DNA of 64,000 nt. It comes from Acidiphilium multivorum AIU301. GTDB taxonomy: Bacteria > Pseudomonadota > Alphaproteobacteria > Acetobacterales > Acetobacteraceae. Positions within the stretch are counted from its first letter, which is position 1. The number at the start of each line of letters is the position of its first letter. The notes beneath the pieces were generated by a model. The model was not told the DNA's origin. It saw only the letters and a list, made by a program, of their open reading frames with translations, and did no database searches. The stretch covers positions 930,001-994,000 of the forward strand of contig NC_015186.1 of assembly GCF_000202835.1 (NCBI RefSeq), written 5' to 3'. A program made the translations under genes and the position numbers. Below are positions 24,192-54,887 of this stretch, piece by piece.

Positions 24192-25421
24192 ATGAGGCCT
24201 GCCATGTCATCGATCGCCGCCCCTCCCACCGCCACGACCGCGACCGACCGCGAGGCCGCGAAGGTCATGGCGGCGGGCATCGCCAGCATGGTCCTCACCG
24301 TCGGCCTCGCCCGCTTCCTCTACACGCCGCTGCTGCCGGTGATGCAGGAGCAGGCGCATCTCTCCGTCACCGGCGGCGGCTGGCTCGCCACCATCAACTA
24401 CGCCGGCTACATGACGGGCACGCTGCTGATCGCCGCGATCGGCGACTTGCGCACCCGTTTCCTGTTCTACCGCGCCCTGCTGGTCATCGCCGTCATCACC
24501 ACGGCGGCGATGGGCCTGACCACCAGCCTCGTCGCCTGGGCGGTGCTGCGCTTCCTCGCCGGAATGACGGCGGTGGGCGCGCTGCTGCTCGGCACCGGGC
24601 TGATGCTCGCCTGGCTGCGCCATCACGGCAGGCGGCTCGAACTCGGCGTGCCCTTCGGCGGCCTCGGCCTCGGCATCGTCGTCTCCGGCCTGCTGCCGAT
24701 GGCGATGGCCTTCCGGCTCGACTGGGCCGGCGAGTGGATCGCCTCCGGCCTGTTCGGCATCGTCTTCCTGATCCCCGCCTGGATCTGGATGCCGATGCCC
24801 CCGCAAGCCGATGCCGCCGGCCCCGCCGCCCTGGCGGACACGCCGCCGGTCGCCCGCTGGATGGCGCTGTTCGTCGCCGCCTATTTCTGCGCCGGCGTCG
24901 GCTATGTCGTCAGCGCCACCTTCATCGTCGCCCTGGTGGCGCATCTGCCGGCGCTGCGCGGCATGGGGAATCTGGTCTGGGTCGTGGTCGGCCTCGGCGC
25001 GATCCCGACCGCTCCGCTCTGGGACCGCGTCGCCCGCCGCACCGGCGACATCAGGGCGCTGCTCGCCGCCTTCGCCCTGCTCACCCTCAGCATCGCGATC
25101 GGCGCGACCACGCGCGGCGTCGCCCTCTCGCTGGTCGGTGCCGCCCTCTACGGATGTTCGTTCAACGGCATCACCAGCATGACGCTGACGATCATCGGCC
25201 GGCTCTACCCGCGCAATCCCTCGAAGGCGATGGCGCGGATGACGATCAGCTTCGGCGCCGCGCAGATCATCGCGCCCGCCGTCTCGGGCTATATCGCCGC
25301 GCTCACCGGCAGCTACGACGGCGCGCTGTGGATGGCCGCCGCGGTGATGGTCACCGGCATGGCCTGCCTGCTGCTGCTCCCGCGCCGGCGCACCCAGGCG
25401 GCAGCCGAAGCCGCCGCCTGA
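24192..25421 (+). CDS. MFS transporter of the YbfB/YjiJ family
   Basis: This roughly 409-residue membrane protein has twelve predicted transmembrane segments. Family-like stretches are GLARFLYTPLLPVMQEQ near the start, NYAGYMTGTL, and FNGITSMTLTIIGRLYPRN in the second half. It is a secondary transporter, with substrate unknown. I chose the ATG at 24192; others at 24150 and 24204 are possible. It stands alone after the liv operon and is followed by a cluster of inverted repeats. Confidence 0.85.
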   Translation: MRPAMSSIAAPPTATTATDREAAKVMAAGIASMVLTVGLARFLYTPLLPVMQEQAHLSVTGGGWLATINYAGYMTGTLLIAAIGDLRTRFLFYRALLVIAVITTAAMGLTTSLVAWAVLRFLAGMTAVGALLLGTGLMLAWLRHHGRRLELGVPFGGLGLGIVVSGLLPMAMAFRLDWAGEWIASGLFGIVFLIPAWIWMPMPPQADAAGPAALADTPPVARWMALFVAAYFCAGVGYVVSATFIVALVAHLPALRGMGNLVWVVVGLGAIPTAPLWDRVARRTGDIRALLAAFALLTLSIAIGATTRGVALSLVGAALYGCSFNGITSMTLTIIGRLYPRNPSKAMARMTISFGAAQIIAPAVSGYIAALTGSYDGALWMAAAVMVTGMACLLLLPRRRTQAAAEAAA

Positions 25422-25435
25422 TCCATACGATCCTT

Positions 25436-25539
25436 AGAGCACTTTCCGATCCTTTCGGATCGGATGTAGTGCTCTACCACATTGATAAACAGAGCATCTT
25501 TATCCGATCAGATGATTCCATCTGATCGGATGATGCTCT
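25436..25539. repeat. Two adjacent intergenic hairpin repeats (AGAGCA type)
   Basis: The first hairpin, 25436-25475, has outer arms AGAGCACT/AGTGCTCT and inner arms TCCGATCC/GGATCGGA. The second, 25491-25539, has outer arms AGAGCATC/GATGCTCT and inner arms ATCCGATCAGATG/CATCTGATCGGAT with a 4-base loop. AGAGCA-N-TTCCGATC palindromes resemble short repeats scattered in alphaproteobacterial intergenic DNA. They may also end MFS transcription. They abut the TAGTGTCC repeat. Confidence 0.7.
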
Positions 25540-25658
25540 AGTGTCCTGCCCCTGAAATTCGTGGGTGAATTTCAGGGACAAGCAGGCCACTAAACTATTG
25601 TTTTTTCCAGTGTCCACTTTGAATCTGAAATCCGATGGATTTCAGATTCGGGACACTA
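25539..25658. repeat. 120-bp palindromic repeat element, copy A (full length)
   Basis: The element is bounded by the inverted ends TAGTGTCC (25539-25546) and GGACACTA (25651-25658). It carries two internal hairpins: CCCTGAAATTC/GAATTTCAGGG and GAATCTGAAATCC/GGATTTCAGATTC with a 3-base loop. A related copy is at 30386-30502 and a truncated inverted one at 54636-54712. The right end supplies the ilvD stop codon (TAG, 25656-25658). It looks like a non-autonomous mobile repeat (MITE or REP-like); it encodes no protein. Confidence 0.8.
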
Positions 25659-27570: not shown

Positions 27571-27777
27571 CTACCCTGCGCCGGTCAGGGCGAACACCCG
27601 CAGCGCCGAGGCGAGCGGGCGGTCCGGGTCGCGCGCGGCGTCGACCTCGCCGACCAGCGTGCCCAGCGCCACGCCGCGCCGCGCCGCCGCCGCCTCCAGC
27701 GCCGTCCAGAATTCCGGCTCCAGCGCCACGCTGGTGCGGTGCCCGGAGAGCGACAGGCTGCGCTTCTCGAGGTTCAT
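27571..27777 (-). CDS. Small ribbon-helix-helix domain protein
   Basis: This 68-residue protein reads MNLEKRSLSLSGHRTSVALE with the helical stretch PEFWTALEAAAARRGVALGT. It matches the single-domain RHH_4-like proteins common in alphaproteobacteria. A DNA-binding role is possible: the strand SGHRTSVALE would contact DNA as a dimer. Its ATG overlaps the hpnN stop (ATGA, 27774-27777), so it is translated with the exporter gene. The reading frame continues upstream inside hpnN, but that part is shadow sequence. Confidence 0.75.
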   Translation of the reverse strand: MNLEKRSLSLSGHRTSVALEPEFWTALEAAAARRGVALGTLVGEVDAARDPDRPLASALRVFALTGAG

Positions 27778-30350
27778 TCCCGCCGCGGCAGCACGTAGAG
27801 CAGGGCCGGCAGGAACACGAAGGTGGCGATCAGCACGGCCAGCAGGCTGAGCAGCAGCAGCGCGCCGAGGCTCGCCGTGCCGCGGTCCTGCGAGGCGGCG
27901 AGCGAGCCGAAGGCGGTGCCGGTGGTCAGCGCCGAGAACAGCACGGCCCGCGCCGTGGCCGAGCCCAGCAGGTGCTTCATCCCGTCGCGCCAGTTCATCA
28001 CGAAATACACGTTGAACGAGACGCCGACGCCGAGCAGCAGCGGCAGCGCGATGATGTTCGCATAGTTCAGCTGCAGCCCGGCGAGATGGGCGAACAGCGC
28101 GGTGAGAACGGCCGACAGCGCCAGGGTGAGCACCACCAGCGCCGAATCCCGCGCCGAGCGGAGAAACAGCATCAGGATCAGCCCGATCGCGGCGGCGGCC
28201 AGGGCGGCGGCCTCGCGGAAGGCGCCGAGGATGGTCTGCGCCGTCGCCACCGTGGTCGCCGCCGGCCCGGCCGCGACCGGCACCACCGTCTCCACCGCCC
28301 GCACGAAGCGCCACAACCCCGCCGAGCTTTGCGCCGCCGCGGTCGGAATCACCTGCACCCGCACCTCGCCGCCCGGCAGGAACCAGTCCCGCTTCACCGA
28401 CTGCGGCAGGTTCGCCGCCGTGATCTCCTGCGCCGAGAGCGCCTGGTTCAGCCTCGTCAGCGCATCCGGCAGATAACGGGTGAGGGCGGCGTTCATCGCC
28501 ATCACCCGCGCGTCGGGAGCGGACTTCAGCTGCTCCAGCGCGGCGCCGATGCCGAGCAGCGGGGAGTCCTTCGGCAGCTTGCCCGCGACCGCGGCGATCT
28601 CCGCCGCCGCCTTCGCCGCCGCCGCGCGCAGGCGCTGCGGCGTCACCGCGGGCGGCGTGCCGGCCGCGAGGCTCGGCGCCAGGATGCCCTGCGTCTGCCG
28701 GATCATGCCGAGCTTGGCCGCCTGGTGCTGCGGCACGAAGGTCGCGCCGGAAATCACCTGCGAGACCTCGGGGAGCTTGCCAAGCCGCGCCGAAAGCTGC
28801 CGCGCATCCTCGACATTCTTCGCCAGGACATTGATGTAGAAAGGATTCGTGACCGATTTGTCGAGCAGCGAATGCAGCGTCCGCATCGCCTCCGTATTCG
28901 GGTTCTGGGTGTCGAGCGGGTTGGCGTCGAACTGCAGCGTGGCGGCGGCGAGAATGCCGGCGATCGCCACCGCGGCGAAAATGCCGAGCACCGGGCGGCC
29001 GTGCCGCTGCAGCGCGCTGTCGCCCCAGTCGCCGAGCGGAAAGCCGATCCGCTCCGCCTCGCCGCGCGGCCGCGTGTAGGCGAGCAGGGCGGGCAGGAAG
29101 GTGATCGTGCAGATGAAGGCGATCACCATGCCGATCCCGGCGATCAGCCCCAGTTCGGCGACGCCCACGAAGCTGGTCGGCACGAAGGCGAGAAAGCCGC
29201 AGGCCGTCGCCCCGGCGGCGAGCGCGATCTGCACCCCCGCCTCGTCGGCGGCGCCGATCAGCGCCAGCGCGGGGTCGTCCACCCGGCGGCGCACGTCGCG
29301 CAGCCGCACGCAGAACTGGATCGCGAAATCGACCGCGAGGCCGACGAACAGGATCGCGAAGGCCACCGAGATCAGGTTCAGCGTGCCGATGGCGAGGGCG
29401 GCGAAGCTGATCGTCAGCGCAAGTCCCGCGAGCAGCGTGGCGAGGATCGGCACGATCATCCGCCACGACCGCACCGCGAGCAGCAGCCAGAGCGTGATCA
29501 GCGCGGTGCTGATGAGCAGCCCGGCCACCATCCCCTGGGTCAGGCTGGCGAACTGCTCGTCCGAAAGCGGGATCTGCCCCGTGTAGCTGATCCGCGCCGA
29601 GCCGTCCTTCACCTCCGGCAGCCTGGCGATGATCCGCCGCAGCGCCGCCGTCGCCACCCCGCCCGGCTCCAGCGCGCCGTGATCGAGAACCGGATGGATC
29701 AGCACGAAGCGCACATTGCCCTGCTCCGCGGCCACCCCCGGCATCAGCAGCGACTGCCACGAGAGCGGCGCGGGATGCCCGGCCGCCGCGGCCGCCAGCG
29801 CCTTGCGGAAGGTGTCGAGCTGGGCGCGGTAGGGGGCGAGGTTGGCCTGCCCCGCGCCGACGCCCACCGCCATCAGGTCGAGCGCCTTGAACAGCCCGGC
29901 GGCGGAGGGATCGGCCGAGAGCTGGCCGAGAAAGGGCTGGGCGGTGACGATCGAGTTCAGCAATGTGGCGAGCTGCGTCTCGGGCAGCAGCAGCAGGCCG
30001 TCGCGGTCGTAGAAACTGCCGGTGCCGGGGCGCGAGGCATCGTGGAAATGGGTCTTGTCCTCCGCCACCTTCGCGGCCAGCGCCTTCGCCGTCGCGTCCG
30101 CCGTCTCCGGCACATCGGCGCGCACCACCGCGACGATGAGGTTCTGGAACTGCGGGAACGCCCGGTCGAACTTCATCTGCTCCTGCCGCCAGGGCAGGCT
30201 GGCGGCGAAGAGGTGATCGGTATTGGTGTCGATCCCGAGATGGGACGACGTATAGGCGAGCCCGAGCACGATCGCGGCCAGATAGGCCGCGATCACCGCC
30301 CGCGCGTGGCGGCGGCTCAGGGCGACCGCGGTCATGATCAGTCTTCGCAT
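27774..30350 (-). CDS. hpnN: Hopanoid-associated RND (MMPL) transporter HpnN
   Basis: This 858-residue RND-superfamily membrane protein has two halves, each with one leading membrane helix, a large periplasmic loop and a five-helix bundle. The start reads TAVALSRRHARAVIAAYLAA, with SSHLGIDTNTDHLFAASLPWRQ beginning the first periplasmic loop. That is characteristic of HpnN, which moves hopanoids to the outer membrane. Membrane motifs such as ILFVGLAVDFAIQFCVRLRD are present. No other hopanoid gene is nearby. An ATG at 30335 is an alternative start. The downstream overlapping RHH gene is co-translated. Confidence 0.87.
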   Translation of the reverse strand: MRRLIMTAVALSRRHARAVIAAYLAAIVLGLAYTSSHLGIDTNTDHLFAASLPWRQEQMKFDRAFPQFQNLIVAVVRADVPETADATAKALAAKVAEDKTHFHDASRPGTGSFYDRDGLLLLPETQLATLLNSIVTAQPFLGQLSADPSAAGLFKALDLMAVGVGAGQANLAPYRAQLDTFRKALAAAAAGHPAPLSWQSLLMPGVAAEQGNVRFVLIHPVLDHGALEPGGVATAALRRIIARLPEVKDGSARISYTGQIPLSDEQFASLTQGMVAGLLISTALITLWLLLAVRSWRMIVPILATLLAGLALTISFAALAIGTLNLISVAFAILFVGLAVDFAIQFCVRLRDVRRRVDDPALALIGAADEAGVQIALAAGATACGFLAFVPTSFVGVAELGLIAGIGMVIAFICTITFLPALLAYTRPRGEAERIGFPLGDWGDSALQRHGRPVLGIFAAVAIAGILAAATLQFDANPLDTQNPNTEAMRTLHSLLDKSVTNPFYINVLAKNVEDARQLSARLGKLPEVSQVISGATFVPQHQAAKLGMIRQTQGILAPSLAAGTPPAVTPQRLRAAAAKAAAEIAAVAGKLPKDSPLLGIGAALEQLKSAPDARVMAMNAALTRYLPDALTRLNQALSAQEITAANLPQSVKRDWFLPGGEVRVQVIPTAAAQSSAGLWRFVRAVETVVPVAAGPAATTVATAQTILGAFREAAALAAAAIGLILMLFLRSARDSALVVLTLALSAVLTALFAHLAGLQLNYANIIALPLLLGVGVSFNVYFVMNWRDGMKHLLGSATARAVLFSALTTGTAFGSLAASQDRGTASLGALLLLSLLAVLIATFVFLPALLYVLPRRE

Positions 30351-30385: not shown

Positions 30386-30502
30386 TGGTGTCCCGCGCTG
30401 AGATCCGGAGTGAATTTCAGCGCCGATCAGGTCACGAATATGTTGATTTTACGAGTGTCCACTTGAGTCTGAAACCCGGCGGACTTCAGTGTCGGGACAC
30501 TA
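30386..30502. repeat. Palindromic repeat element, copy B (diverged)
   Basis: This 117-bp copy runs in the same direction as copy A, from TGGTGTCC (30386-30393) to GGACACTA (30495-30502), and includes the shared AGTGTCCACTT core. Its first hairpin is GCGCTGAGAT/ATTTCAGCGC: the outer pairs differ from copy A on both arms together, so base pairing is kept. It occupies the gap between hpnN and the TAXI gene. Confidence 0.75.
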
Positions 30503-30550: not shown

Positions 30551-31534
30551 TCAGCCGCGCACCAGCGCGTCCGGCACGGCGAGCCCCGCCTCGCGCAGCG
30601 CCGCCGCCGCGCCGGGGTGGAAGGGCACCGGCGAACTGCGGTCGATCCAGCCCGCGTCCAGCCGCGCCGGCCCGCTGCCGGGCAGGGTGCGCAGCAGGGC
30701 GGCGCGATGGATCAGCGCCGCCCGCGTCACCGCATGGGCCAGCCCTTCCGGCAGGTTCGCCGCACCGATGGCGATCGCCTCGGAGCCGATCGTCGCCACC
30801 GCGGCGGACAGATGCGGCAGCGCGTCGCGGCCGATCACCGTCGGCCCGATGCCGGGCAGCGCCCGCCGCGCCGCCGCGATCTCGCCCCGCTCGAAGCCGA
30901 TCAGGTTGTAGCCGCCGCTCGCCGCCGCGGCGCGGACCGCCGGCAGCGGCGTGACGCCGAAAAAGGCGCAGGCGTCGATCCGGCCCTTTTGCAGCAGTTC
31001 GATCTGCTCGTGATAAAGCCCGTCGATCGCCAGCTGCGGCCGCACCCCGGCGGCGGTGAGCGCCGCCGCCGCCAGCACCGCCCCGGCACCGCCGGCCGGG
31101 CCGACGCCGATCCGCTTGCCGTCCAGGTCGCGCAGCCGGCGCAACCCGCTCCGCGCCGGCGCGAAAATCTGCAGGCTCGCGCCGAAGACCGGAAACAGGG
31201 CGCGGAATCCCTGGAGCTTCACGCCGCTGGTCCAGGCGCCCTGGCCCATCCAGGCCTGTTCGGCGACGGCCAGCACCGCGAGGCCCAGCTGTGCCGCGTG
31301 CTGCTCCACCAGCAGGATGTTGGCGGCGCTGCCGCCGGATGCGCGGTAGGACACGGAAATCCGCGCGGCCTTCTGCGCCAGCTGTCCCCATGCCTGGCCA
31401 TAGACCGAGAACCCGCCGCCCGGCTGGCCGGTCCCCATCGTGATGGCCACCGGCATCACCGGCAGGCTCGCCGCCCGCGCCGCCAGAGGCGCCCCGGCCA
31501 TCGCCCCCAACACCGCGCGCCGTCCCCGCGCCAT
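30551..31534 (-). CDS. TAXI-family TRAP transporter solute-binding protein
   Basis: This 327-residue exported protein has a short signal region (MARGRRAVLGAMAGAPLAAR), then the TAXI hallmarks VAITMGTGQPGGGFSVYGQAW and ISVSYRASGGSAANILLVE and a later DLDGKRIGVGPAGGAGAVL. It would bind a small carboxylate, such as glutamate or a C4-dicarboxylate, in the periplasm. ATG at 31534 has AGGAG at ideal spacing; earlier in-frame starts exist at 31540, 31552 and 31606. No TRAP membrane subunit is encoded next to it, so it must work with a permease elsewhere or have another role such as sensing. Confidence 0.85.
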   Translation of the reverse strand: MARGRRAVLGAMAGAPLAARAASLPVMPVAITMGTGQPGGGFSVYGQAWGQLAQKAARISVSYRASGGSAANILLVEQHAAQLGLAVLAVAEQAWMGQGAWTSGVKLQGFRALFPVFGASLQIFAPARSGLRRLRDLDGKRIGVGPAGGAGAVLAAAALTAAGVRPQLAIDGLYHEQIELLQKGRIDACAFFGVTPLPAVRAAAASGGYNLIGFERGEIAAARRALPGIGPTVIGRDALPHLSAAVATIGSEAIAIGAANLPEGLAHAVTRAALIHRAALLRTLPGSGPARLDAGWIDRSSPVPFHPGAAAALREAGLAVPDALVRG

Positions 31535-31687
31535 TGCCATTCTCCTCGTCATGTCCCGCGTTGTTCCGCCCGATTTGGGCGAATTCAGGGCGCAGCCTCC
31601 TGCCATGCCCGATCCGTCGCACCGGACACGACGTGATCACGAAACCGGTACGTTCGCTTAAAATACGAAACCATCGGCAAGGCAAAT

Positions 31688-43824: not shown

Positions 43825-44904
43825 CTTGCCTATCCGGTTGACTCCCATACCTACTAGATCTAGTGTTGGGCATGGATGTCCTGGCCCGTGAAGACCTGCC
43901 GTTCCCGCAGTCTCTGCCGGAATTCCAGCGTATTTTCCCGAACGACGCGGCCTGTGCCGCCTATCTCGAAAGCGCCCGCTGGAATGGAGGGTTCGCCTGC
44001 CCAAGGTGCGGCGTCGTTGGCGAGCCGTTCCGTTTCGAGGCGCGCCCGGGCGTTCTGCGCTGCCGGGCCTGTCGCAAAGACGTAAGCCTGATGGCTGGGA
44101 CCGTTATGGAACGCAGTCACACGCCGCTGTCGACTTGGTTCTGGGCGGCTTACTTGATCGCCAGCCAGACGCCCGGAATGTCGGCCGTCCAATTTCAGCG
44201 GCAACTCGGCCTGTCGCGCTACGAGACCGCCTTCGGCATCCTTCATAAGCTGCGCGCCGGGATGGTGCGCCCCGAGCGCGACAAGATTGGCGACACGCCG
44301 CAAGAACACGTCGAAGTGGATGAAACGTGGGTTGGAGGACGAACCCGAGGCGATGGACGGGGTGTCCATCACAAGGTTCTCGTCGCCTGTGCCGTGGAGG
44401 TGCGCCACCGGAAACCGGGAACCAAGCTCGACAATCGGAAAGACGGTCGCTACGCGGGACGCGTTCGTCTCGCTGTTGTCCCCGACCGTAGCGCCAATTC
44501 GCTCTGCGGATTCGTCGAAAACGCCGTTGCTCCCGGATCGCTGATCGTTACCGACGACTGGAGCGGCTATGCCGGTCTCGGAAGGCGCGGGTTCGACCAC
44601 CATGCAATCGCCGAATGCGGCGACCCGGAGGTGGCAGAAGAATTCCTGCCGATCGTCCACTTGGTCTTTACCAACCTGAAGACCTGGATCAACGGCATCC
44701 ATCACGGGGTCAGCGCCAAACATCTACAAGCCTACCTCAATGAATTCACGTTTCGGTTCAACCGGCGCCTCTATCCCTTCAACGCGTTCCGCTCGCTGCT
44801 CGGAATCGCGGGTAGGGCAGCCGCACCAACCTTTGACGAGCTTTATTCCGGGGAATGGACACACCCTACATTTAGTGGGTGTGGGTAACAACCGGATAGG
44901 CAAG
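43825..44904 (+). mobile_element. IS1595-family (ISXO2-like) insertion sequence, 1080 bp
   Basis: The element begins and ends with inverted repeats sharing CTTGCCTATCCGGTTG perfectly (43825-43840 and the complement at 44889-44904), continuing with weaker matches to CCCA-x-ACC. It is flanked by a perfect 8-bp target duplication CAAGGGAC (43817-43824 and 44905-44912). Size, 8-bp duplication and transposase type all fit IS1595. Intact ends, an open transposase gene and a perfect duplication point to a recent, possibly still mobile insertion. Confidence 0.95.
43863..44888 (+). CDS. IS1595-family (ISXO2-like) transposase
   Basis: This protein, up to 341 residues, has an N-terminal zinc-ribbon (CPRCGVVG and CRACRKD, about residues 47-79) and a DDE-type catalytic domain: VDETWVGGRTRG for the first Asp, VTDDWSGYAGLG for the second, and NLKTWINGIHHGVSAKHLQA with YLNEFTFRFNRR as the family's N/K-type end. 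It would cut and insert the element. GTG at 43863, TTG at 43866 and ATG at 43872 are possible starts. The frame is intact and the gene nearly fills the element. Confidence 0.94.
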   Translation: MLGMDVLAREDLPFPQSLPEFQRIFPNDAACAAYLESARWNGGFACPRCGVVGEPFRFEARPGVLRCRACRKDVSLMAGTVMERSHTPLSTWFWAAYLIASQTPGMSAVQFQRQLGLSRYETAFGILHKLRAGMVRPERDKIGDTPQEHVEVDETWVGGRTRGDGRGVHHKVLVACAVEVRHRKPGTKLDNRKDGRYAGRVRLAVVPDRSANSLCGFVENAVAPGSLIVTDDWSGYAGLGRRGFDHHAIAECGDPEVAEEFLPIVHLVFTNLKTWINGIHHGVSAKHLQAYLNEFTFRFNRRLYPFNAFRSLLGIAGRAAAPTFDELYSGEWTHPTFSGCG

Positions 44905-49511: not shown

Positions 49512-52500
49512 CTACCAATTGCAGGTTGCCGTGAAATTGAATGCATTCAGGGAGGTGTTGTCGCCTCTGCGGCTGATATAGACGAGCCGGCCTTTCCAGC
49601 CGTGCTGGGTGCGGAGGGTCAGTCCGAGCCCGGTGTCGAGGGTTGCGCTTGGCGCCGCTTGCGCGCTCACCGGCATGATCTCGGTGCCGAGAGTCTCGGT
49701 GGAAGCGAGCAGGCGGTTGCCGAGATAGGACGTGCCGCCGACCTCGATCCAGGGCTCAAGATCGAGCCCGAAGGTCCTGATCTGGTACCCGGCTCTGGCG
49801 CCCGCGCCGATCGCACCGAGATCGTTGCCTTGCCGACCATAGGCAAGATCGAGCAAGCCGGCGCCATGTTCAGCGAAACCTTCCTGGGACACGTGCAGAT
49901 AGCGTGCGGCAACGAAAGGCGTGATGAAGCCGCGGTCAATATGATCGGTGTAACTGGCGTTGATGCCGGAACCCAGAAACCATCCATGGCCGGTTCCCGT
50001 TGCAACCAGACCGCTCGGCACGAGGCTGCGGCGGGAATTCACGCCGAGATGGCCGAGGCCCAGCGTCAACGCGATCCGCCATGGACCGTGCCGATAGATC
50101 CCGTAGTCGGAGAGGCTGATCTGGCGGTTTGAGATCTGCTGGTAGGCGGTGTTGCTGCTGCTGGCGGTGCCGGCGACAGCGACGCCGAGAAGGAAGCCGG
50201 GCCGGATCCGGGCTCCATAGCCGATGATGGCGCCCCCGTCGGTGATATTCCCGTCATTGGCCTGGCCGAAGCTGCCCAATCCGTGAAGCCAGAAGCCTTT
50301 CCGCGAGGCGAGGACCGCATCCGTCGTGTCCAGGATGTCCTGATTGATGATGTAGGCATTGCCGGCGACGCCGCTGCCCGAGGAAAAGGCGAGAGGGCCG
50401 ACGTTCAGGCTGAGATAGACATTGTCGGCGGTGTACTGGACCTGCGGCAAGAGATAGCTGGCGAGCGCGGAATTGTAGGCGACGGTTGAGAATTGTCCCG
50501 AGACACCGCCGCCGGAATGGACGATGTCGTAGCGCGAGCCGGGGCGGTAGATGCCGGAATCGGCATTGACGGCGAGGCCGCCGGCGAGCTGGACGGAGCC
50601 CGTCACGGCGAGCTGGCTGTAGCTGATGCCGGGCGCCTGATCGTTGGGGGTGATCTCGATCGAGAGCGTGCTGGCAGGGTTCTGAGCGTAGTTGCCCGTG
50701 ACGGTCATGACGCCGATGGTGCCGCCAGGGGCGACAATGCCGCCATTGTTCGCGACATCGCCGGCGATGGTGCCGTGACCGCGCAGAATGGCGCTGGCAT
50801 CGACGGTGACCATGGCGTGCAGAACGGTGCTGCCATGGATGCTGTCTCCGACCTCGAAAAGACCATTCGCGACAGTGACAACGGGCGCGCTGCCGGTTCC
50901 CGTGTTCGTCTGGCTCGTGGCGTTGTCAATCACCGTGCCTCTGGTGGTGAGGGTTCCGGCGAGGTTGAGCGTTCCGGTCAAGGTCAGGGCATTGGCGGTG
51001 GTCGGGTCGAGAGAGGTTCCGGCCGGGCCGGCAAGGCTGCCACCGGTCTTGGCGACATCAATCAGGCGCGCCGTGCTGAACGGCGACATGGCACCGAGCG
51101 TGCCGCCGCTACTCAGCAAGAGATTGCCGCCTGCTGCGCCGAGGGCCGAATCATTCGACACCAGCAGGGTACCGCCCGTGATGCTGGTATTGCCGGTGTA
51201 GGTGCTGGTTCCGGCGAGGGTTGTCGTGCCGCCGGCAAGTTGAAGCCCGCCGGTGCCTGCGATGGGGCCGGCGAAGGTGCCGCTCCCGTTGCTGATGATC
51301 AGGTTGTTGGCGCCGAGCGCGACGGTGCCGGCGCCGGAGCCGGTTAGGGCGGCAATGGTTTCATTGCCCGATGCGCCGGAGATATCGAACGTGCCGTCAT
51401 CGATGAGGCTGGAAGAGCTGGCGATGGAGCTGGCGCCGGCCAGGGCCAGCGTGCCCGCCGTGATGCTGGTATTGCCGGCATAGGTGCTGGTTCCGGCGAG
51501 GGTTGTCGTGCCGCCGGCAAGTTGAAGCCCGCCGGCGCCTGCGATGGTGCCGGCGAAGGTGCCGCTCCCGTTGCTGATGATCAGGTTGTTGGCGCCGAGC
51601 GCGACGGTGCCGGCGCCGGAGCCGGTCAGGGCGGCAATGGTTTCATTGCCCGATGCGCCGGAGATATCGAACCTGCCGTCATCGATGAGGCTGGAAGAGC
51701 TGGCGATGGAGCTGGCGCCGGCCAGGGCCAGCGTGCCCGCCGTGATGCTGGTATTGCCGGTGTAGGTGCTGGTTCCGGCGAGGGTTGTCGTGCCGCCGGC
51801 AAGTTGAAGCCCGCCGGTGCCTGCGATGGTTCCGGCGAAGGTGCCGCTGCCGTTGCTGATGATCAGGTTGTTGGCGCCGAGGGCGACGGTGCCGGCGCCG
51901 GAGCCGGTCAGGGCGGCAATGGTTTCATTGCCCGATGCGCCGGAGATGTCGAACATGCCGTCATCGATGAGGCTGGAAGAGCTGGCGATGGAGCTGGCGC
52001 CGGCGAGGGCCAGCGTGCCCGCCGTGATGCTGGTATTGCCGGCATAGGTGCTGGTTCCGGCGAGGGTTGTCGTGCCGCCGGCAAGTTGAAGCCCGCCGGC
52101 GCCTGCGATGGTTCCGGCGAAGGTGCCGCTCCCGTTGCTGATGATCAGGTTGTTGGCGCCGAGGGTGACGGCGCCAGCGCCGGAGCCGGTCAGAGCGGCA
52201 ATGGTCTCATTGCCCGATGCGCCGGAGATGTCGAACCTGCCGTTATCGATGAGGCTGGAAGAGCTGGCGATGGAGCTGGCGCCGGCCAGGGCCAGCGTGC
52301 CCGCCGTGATGCTGGTATTGCCGGCATAGGTGCTGGTCCCGGCGAGGGTTTCGGTGCCGCCTGTCAGGACAAGGCCTCCCCTTCCGGAGATGTTCCCGGC
52401 GAAGGTGCCGCTTGCACTGGTCAGGGTCAGGGTCTGGTTGCCGAGGTATACGGTGCCGGTCCAGGTGAGACCGGTAACGGATGCACCATGGCTGGTGGCT

Positions 52501-54152: not shown

Positions 54153-54887
54153 TTTTCTGGACGAATTATATTAAATCAACATAATGAATTAATAATTATT
54201 TAATTTATTTTGATAAAATATTTCGGATTGTATCAAATTATTCTTGATTTGAACAATTTCAGACGGGGCGGGCCACAGTCACCGGCGGGTTCGTGCGTAT
54301 TCGCTCAAGTAAATCCTGGATTTCCGGAGTCATTCATGATTGATGGCGATCGCCGCGATTTCAGAAGCTGGCGATGCGGACTGCACGAAATCTCTGCCCG
54401 TCATGAGCGAGGCGCTCGCCCGCGCGCCGGAAGGCCGCCGGCATGTCTTTTGCCTCGCGCAGAGCTGCCGGGATGCCGGGCGTGGCCGCCGCGATGGTTG
54501 CCGGGGAAGGTCTGGCGCTGGATTGTCCCGCTGACGACAAGCGGTTGATCGACGGCTTCGTTTATCGGTGGGGCTTCGCGAGGAGTTGTCGAGCGCCGGG
54601 AACCATGGCCGCGATCCGACGCGGCGGGCACGGGTGGATGCTGGAAAATCAATGATTTGGCGGCCTGCTTGTTCCTGAAATTCACCCGCGAATTTCAGGG
54701 GCGGGACACTGGCCCCGGCTCCTTGCCGAAGCGGCATGCCTCGTGCGGGGGACGGGCATGGATGCTGCCGAAATGGCCGTGCGGGCCACGCGCGCGGCCT
54801 TCGGACGGGGTGGCGCTCTTGACAGCGGGGCCGGGTCGTTGTGGAAGGCGGATGGACGCGCACGGTGTGCGGGCAGTCCGAGCCCGC
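54153..54887. other. Non-coding region with AT-rich promoter zone and a truncated repeat
   Basis: The first 100 bases or so are very AT-rich, unlike anything else in the window, and probably hold the autotransporter promoter. From about 54330 to 54635 there are only short overlapping frames with no recognisable domain. They may be gene remnants or nothing at all. The stretch then contains the truncated palindromic repeat and the leader of tRNA-Trp. I see no supported gene. Confidence 0.6.
54636..54712. repeat. Palindromic repeat element, copy C (inverted, truncated)
   Basis: Read on the minus strand this matches the left half of copy A: CCAGTGTCC, then the hairpin CCCTGAAATTC/GAATTTCAGG, then ACAAGCAGGCC and TTTTCCAGCATCCAC. 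The right-hand hairpin and the GGACACTA end are missing. It shows that the repeat family occurs in both orientations and decays. Confidence 0.75.

Follow-up and report, generated by a model that had tools for sequence, protein, structure and literature searches.

The window analysed here is a 64,000-nt stretch of Acidiphilium multivorum AIU301 (contig NC_015186.1, positions 930,001 to 994,000) that carries three copies of a short repeat, at approximately 25.5, 30.4 and 54.7 kb, all of which had been located in a preliminary description made from the sequence alone. A full copy comprises a left and a right imperfect palindrome (M1 and M2) with a linker between them, its usual border being a TA within CTAG; with a length of 116 nt in copy A, the element is too short for a transposase gene (Table 1). 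Copy A is flanked by a 423-aa frame, which ends at 25421, and, on the opposite strand, by a 625-aa frame whose stop codon (25656-25658) combines the element's final base with the adjoining TA. Copy B is flanked by two minus-strand frames, one of 858 aa (27774-30350) and one of 351 aa (30551-31606). These frames are taken from open reading frames and not from annotation. Copy C, already described as inverted and truncated, is indeed reduced to an inverted M1 and part of the linker, and a tRNA-Trp lies downstream of it.

Table 1. Coordinates of the repeat copies and of the adjoining two-hairpin element in the window.
Feature	Position	Strand	Borders and remarks
Second-family two-hairpin element (GAGCAC..GATGCTC)	25437..25538	+	TA 25539-25540, common with copy A
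Copy A, complete element (GTGTCC..GGACAC)	25541..25656	+	TA borders at 25539-25540 and 25657-25658
Copy A module M1, the left palindrome (contains a T.C mismatch and a bulge of ACAA)	25540..25591	+
Copy A linker, 17 nt, between M1 and M2	25592..25608	+
Copy A module M2, right palindrome	25609..25656	+
Copy B, divergent relative of copy A (77%)	30388..30500	+	TG 30386-30387, TA 30501-30502
Copy C, shortened inverted element	54645..54710	-	M1 (54659-54710) and part of linker; M2 absent

The Acidiphilium host genome contains 17 distinct places with the repeat (27 BLAST rows, ten of them re-matches of the same places); nine of the 17 are full-length at an identity of at least 87%, and seven are copy A itself or are 98-100% identical to it. 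With a DNA query, 9 of 100 genomes gave a match; model R1 detects the module in 81 of the 297 Acetobacteraceae genomes sampled, spread over 39 of 91 genera, and in 5 of 387 genomes taken from across the class. The host is included in each count, with at most 18 matches taken per genome in the Acetobacteraceae search and at most 14 in the class-wide one. Nitratireductor soli, Magnetospirillum species and Blastochloris are also named among the pattern-scan matches listed, in which 80 of 117 stretches bear organism titles. The repeat was found on two plasmid records, both from Acidiphilium, and the Siccirubricoccus form on none; it also occurs in two IMG/VR viral contigs (L236:4219-4277 and L237:2774-2833), a possible vehicle between genomes. 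The positions of copies A and B are lineage-specific: by eye, no copy is present at site A in nine relatives' loci (L186 and L187 left aside) or at site B in six, G004 included. In relatives, the flanks of both sites have diverged too far to reveal an empty site to the exact base, and none was found. Upstream of 1501, at site A in G010 (L179), lies a different palindromic sequence ending TTGCTCTAA, perhaps another family of this sort. In three places (L117, L136, L156) M1 modules stand in direct tandem with the linker repeated, indicating that modules can multiply within an element.

The three copies differ markedly in how well they fold. Taken as single-stranded DNA, copy A as a whole reaches -36.7 kcal/mol (z -9.7), and its modules score z -5.3 (M1) and -7.7 (M2) against dinucleotide shuffles, none of 200 shuffles being as good in any of these comparisons. 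M1 of copy C is intermediate (z -2.2; 7/200 shuffles as good), and copy B stands barely above shuffles in M1 (z -1.2; 23/200 as good or better), in M2 (z -1.5; 18/200) and as a whole (z -1.5; 16/200 as good). The preliminary description had pointed to matching changes on both arms of the first hairpin of copies A and B that would leave its pairing intact; the arms that it quoted are right and the core helix is kept with different letters (CCCTGAAATTC..GAATTTCAGGG in copy A, GCGCTGAGAT..ATTTCAGCGC in copy B), but copy B is far from fully paired. Within the window, model R1 matches copies A and C and leaves copy B unmatched, and Rfam at gathering thresholds returns two tRNAs only, the repeat being without a match to any described family. 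The sequence analyses yielded no evidence for a role in mRNA protection or as a structured RNA, two uses that had been proposed beforehand.

The idea that the repeat is a mobile element, likewise put forward beforehand, finds support in IS630-like ends and in TA/CTAG borders. In the host, the motif CTAGTGTCCYG has 18 matches, of which 17 are repeat ends and one is the end of a frame-broken, shortened IS630 copy (contig C1); a second broken copy (contig C2) has a like end, one letter off, and these two are the only host copies of the matching IS630. Full-length relatives are borne by plasmids of Roseomonas, Rhodovastum and Komagataeibacter, and in a DNA search relatives appear on 604 plasmid records, 167 of which cover at least 80% of the query. 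Five copies, from Roseomonas marmotae, Rhodovastum, Komagataeibacter (two) and Bradyrhizobium (L257-L261), have a full transposase gene annotated as IS630 family, and all five are 1,149-1,171 nt long from TA to TA, with CTA on the left and TAG on the right; their ten ends read GTGTCCTGAT.., two of them with a single deviating letter. Other host IS630 copies (L053-L055) were considered as a source and rejected, their TAGAGCG ends not fitting the repeat. A nearby autonomous element was also sought, by BLAST-clustering the open reading frames of at least 100 aa (stop-to-stop) at repeat loci; the 25 largest clusters, inspected by eye, reveal no recurrent transposase.

Measured as the best ungapped 20-nt match to 19 IS ends, 12 of 15 repeat ends agree at 15-18 positions, a level to be read against 20,000 random 20-mers drawn from element-bearing loci, of which 36 reach at least 13/20 and six reach 15-16. 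The 19 ends include two from the broken host copies and leave out those of L260, L280 and L281 and the Streptomyces IRR; 6 of 18 IS copies (Variovorax, Bradyrhizobium barranii, the ISRj1 group, Paracoccus, Roseovarius and Roseomonas mucosa) were set aside as having no convincing in-register, TA-bounded end pair. The left ends of copies A and C and of the Siccirubricoccus, KT_bin-0655 and Magnetospirillum elements (15-17/20) each fit IRL best, and the right ends of copies A and B and of the Siccirubricoccus, Neoroseomonas, KT_bin-0655, Magnetospirillum and Rhodopila elements (16-18/20) fit IRR best, the Neoroseomonas match being tied with an IRL. The polarity of the left ends is nevertheless weak, because the two ends of the Rhodovastum copy differ by a single letter in 20. 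An origin in the ends of a known insertion sequence, which the preliminary description had held against its own reading, is found in part: most outer ends are of the IS630 family, but the left end of copy B (11/20) and the Nitratireductor ends (12/20 and 10/17) match the 19 IS ends poorly. Repeat and transposon also meet in one genome, KT_bin-0655, which holds a copy of the repeat (L078) together with an IS630 in two adjoining pieces, its protein 89-91% identical to that of Rhodovastum and its single readable end beginning TAGTGTCCTGATCGAGAAGTTCC.

Borders were counted in the 79 of 121 listed elements whose second module was recognised by the script, the other 42 being dropped; a few of the 79 look mis-paired but were kept (e.g. 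L097, the first module of L115, L141, L166, L170). A TA stands on the left in 57 of 79, on the right in 41 and on both sides in 30, and no joint variation of left and right border letters is visible among the 79. A CTAG preference of IS630 is, by its title, reportedly the subject of a published study. GANTC occurs in the 3' arm of M2 in 53 of the 79 listed elements, compared with a fraction of about 0.10 in simple shuffles, and in 3 of 121 M1 interiors. One end of the IS copies, too, often has GANTC at positions 9-13 with a varying N (L257-L262, L280-L284, L288), appearing as GATTC, GAATC or GACTC at one end of several alphaproteobacterial copies. Control of the ends by CcrM, whose site is GANTC, is conceivable, and it stays a remark because Rhodococcus and Streptomyces copies also have GAGTC, because Rhodovastum and ISMex18 have no GANTC and because shared descent explains much.

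Copy A shares its left TA with an element of a second, distinct two-hairpin family, TA-bounded and 103 nt long, which has about 40 further places in the host (L292-L321); the list holds 43 places, hand-collapsed from 63 rows with partial copies included, and 40 of 47 candidates were scored. Its ends agree at 11-13 of 20 positions with those of the other host IS630 copies (L053-L055, TAGAGCGTATTTCGATCAG). A member of this family lies within 12 bases of 9 of the 17 host repeat places, three of which are between two members, compared with about 0.007 expected at random, and the neighbours that were read share the TA with the repeat copies. Such adjacency is what elements with the same TA/CTAG target would produce. 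A pattern search for an empty site inside the second family gave 0 matches.

Two copies alone do not suffice to establish covariation; the claim is carried by a comparison across M1 modules, the kind of check that the preliminary description had proposed. The pattern scan that supplied the modules (121 listed, with 105 distinct interiors) fixed most of the outer stem, so that outer-stem conservation is there by construction and only the interior and M2 were free to vary. In 49 of the 121 modules, drawn from other genomes, less than 0.88 alike, aligned with MAFFT and scored on a structure named by us, 91.1% of cells are paired as against 81.5% in shuffles, and 106 cells are changed yet paired as against 31.3 in shuffles, all slid controls staying at or below 33; two-sided changes affect 11 of 13 inner pairs. 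The consensus that RNAalifold derives by itself from the same alignment has 14 pairs, three with two-sided changes. In 42 of the 121 modules, less than 0.85 alike, arms pair with their own partners at 5.76 of 8 inner positions and with permuted partners at 3.45 (maximum of 2,000 permutations, 4.21). The pairing-preserving changes are therefore genuine across the 49 dissimilar modules: the letters turn over and the pairing stays. A covarying helix, as expected of a structured RNA family, is present; template switching can yield the same signal.

How the arms change within genomes bears directly on this ambiguity. Among the modules listed, 89 are long M1 modules, and in the middle of their stem GAA stands opposite GNA in 49, and the two arms are exact complements there in 20, the latter being of seven kinds. 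Neoroseomonas soli has nine copies, with GAA in five and, in the other four, TTC facing a GAA that has not changed; intermediate forms are absent. Among 17 Siccirubricoccus modules, the whole 5' triplet is the complement of the other arm in L121 and L134, the 3' triplet has been rewritten in the same sense in L115, and L107 shows this rewriting by eye in a shifted register; GGGC lies beside the stem in three of these four rewritten modules and in none of the other 13 (Fisher 0.006, in a test framed post hoc). A one-base variant (L099) indicates that single steps occur too, and sister copies may by shared descent repeat a single rewriting event. In L009, which lies in the host genome, M1 is inverted (51/52 to the reverse complement), the linker and M2 keeping their normal orientation. 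The arms of L028 are alike over 25 of 25 positions. Template switching is described as homogenising arms and inverting spacers (PMC8604942), and has been argued to be able to create and maintain hairpins with multibase compensatory changes (PMC8794818). Three-base arm blocks and an inverted interior being among such products, covariation need not mean a functional fold. In our view template switching has a share in the covariation, beside which the fold may have a function; that M1 keeps its mismatch and bulge in many copies, even though arms are rewritten, suggests that the outer frame is under some selection.

Taken together, these observations lead us to regard the repeat as probably (at a probability of roughly 0.7) a non-autonomous MITE of an IS630-family (Tc1/mariner-type) transposon, the pairing of its arms being kept at least partly by template switching. 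The repeat shares its ends with IS630, has TA/CTAG borders, occupies lineage-specific positions and displays block-wise agreement of its arms within genomes. We infer from the IS630 literature that the outer GTGTCC.. ends would serve as recognition sites for an IS630 transposase supplied in trans, which would excise the element and insert it at a TA, mostly in CTAG, with duplication of the TA. Each end of the element is extended by an inverted repeat of its own sequence, and this makes up the two quasi-palindromic modules. Template switching between the arms, more than selection, would be the main keeper of the pairing, either arm being rewritten to complement its partner, so that apparent compensatory changes would arise without selection on a folded RNA.

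A less probable reading, although one compatible with an IS630 origin, is that the folded form itself is selected, as single-stranded DNA or as RNA, for instance because it marks the outer ends for cleavage, stabilises or terminates transcripts, or acts as a small structured RNA, the covariation then reflecting compensatory selection. This is the step that the preliminary description took from covariation to function; the covariation has held up, and the step itself is not required, given the visible footprints of template switching. The strength of the covariation speaks for selection on the fold, as do the oriented mismatch and bulge of M1, which recur in several Acidiphilium genomes found without the pattern, and a weak strand bias of mismatches among the modules listed (31 G.T against 19 A.C on the plus strand, at inner depths 2-3 and 7-11); however, template switching gives the same signal, much of the structure has been lost in copies B and C, Rfam has no match and the positions are not conserved. 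Rather unlikely, in our estimate, is a mobiliser that belongs to another IS630 group or is a different enzyme altogether, the likeness of the ends being old or partial: the Rhodovastum transposase is unmatched in 9 of 15 repeat-bearing genomes, including the copy-rich Siccirubricoccus, Neoroseomonas and Nitratireductor, and the Nitratireductor ends differ, yet end matches of 15-18/20 come from several genera, and CTAGTG also starts other IS630 copies of repeat-bearing genomes, in Limobrevibacterium (L266) and Humitalea (L265). Highly improbable is the REP-type (Y1/RAYT) enzyme suggested beforehand, which would make the repeat a REP/BIME element moved by a REP-associated tyrosine transposase: its two imperfect hairpins, oriented and inverted relative to each other, and the tandem module chains do recall BIMEs, but the ends are in keeping with an IS630-family DDE transposon and PF01797 is without a match in the host (0/1; control search positive in 5 of 14 genomes) although its seven 98-100% copies look recent. 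The lack of a Y1 transposase in the host is our reason for not classing the repeat as REP/BIME.

We found no description of this family in the literature searched, in which subscription papers are poorly covered. The RIME of Rhizobium, of about 108 bp with two large palindromes, is similar in size and in its two palindromes, as far as its description goes. The closest system by architecture, judged by its description in PMC2229807, is CIR of Caulobacter, Brucella and other Alphaproteobacteria, intergenic and of about 110 bp, with two inverted-repeat arms, a linker and GANTC; in CIR the GANTC lies at or near the loop, whereas in the repeat it lies in the stem, and the account of CIR in that review leaves its mobiliser open, calling for more information on the mechanism of mobility, whereas IS630 ends could be identified here. 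By origin, the closest is RUP, the repeat unit of pneumococcus, which the same review describes as a non-coding intergenic element of 107 bp with IS630-like ends and a TA target and for which IS630-Spn1 is the proposed mobiliser; it differs in belonging to another phylum and another IS630, and its description there reports no two-arm or other signature of structure or function (PMC2229807). IS630-family insertion sequences such as ISY100, described as inserting almost only at TA with duplication of the TA (PMC2170065), resemble the repeat in having terminal repeats and a TA at both borders; the repeat, in contrast, has no transposase and a tenth of the length, and its palindromic modules are absent from the IS copy ends that were read.

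A wider and much more tentative proposal is that two-arm alphaproteobacterial repeats (the present one, its neighbour family and perhaps CIR) may be IS630 MITEs whose ends have grown into oriented quasi-palindromes, the intact outer end being cut, a fixed mismatch and bulge inactivating the inner copy, and template switching keeping the arms complementary even as their letters change. If this were true, strong covariation without a selected RNA would constitute a class of false positives for covariation-based RNA discovery. The present results name IS630 as a likely mobiliser for a class of two-arm alphaproteobacterial repeats. The family also lends itself, as a natural data set, to comparing covariation with block rewriting of one arm, and it counsels caution when functional RNA is inferred from covariation in palindromic mobile DNA. 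The window also contains other repeated DNA, namely about five 282-bp units in tandem, 74-97% alike, at 51165-52459, and a pair of 42-nt inverted arms (43825-43866 and 44863-44904), 81% complementary and 996 nt apart, which are possibly the ends of an insertion sequence.
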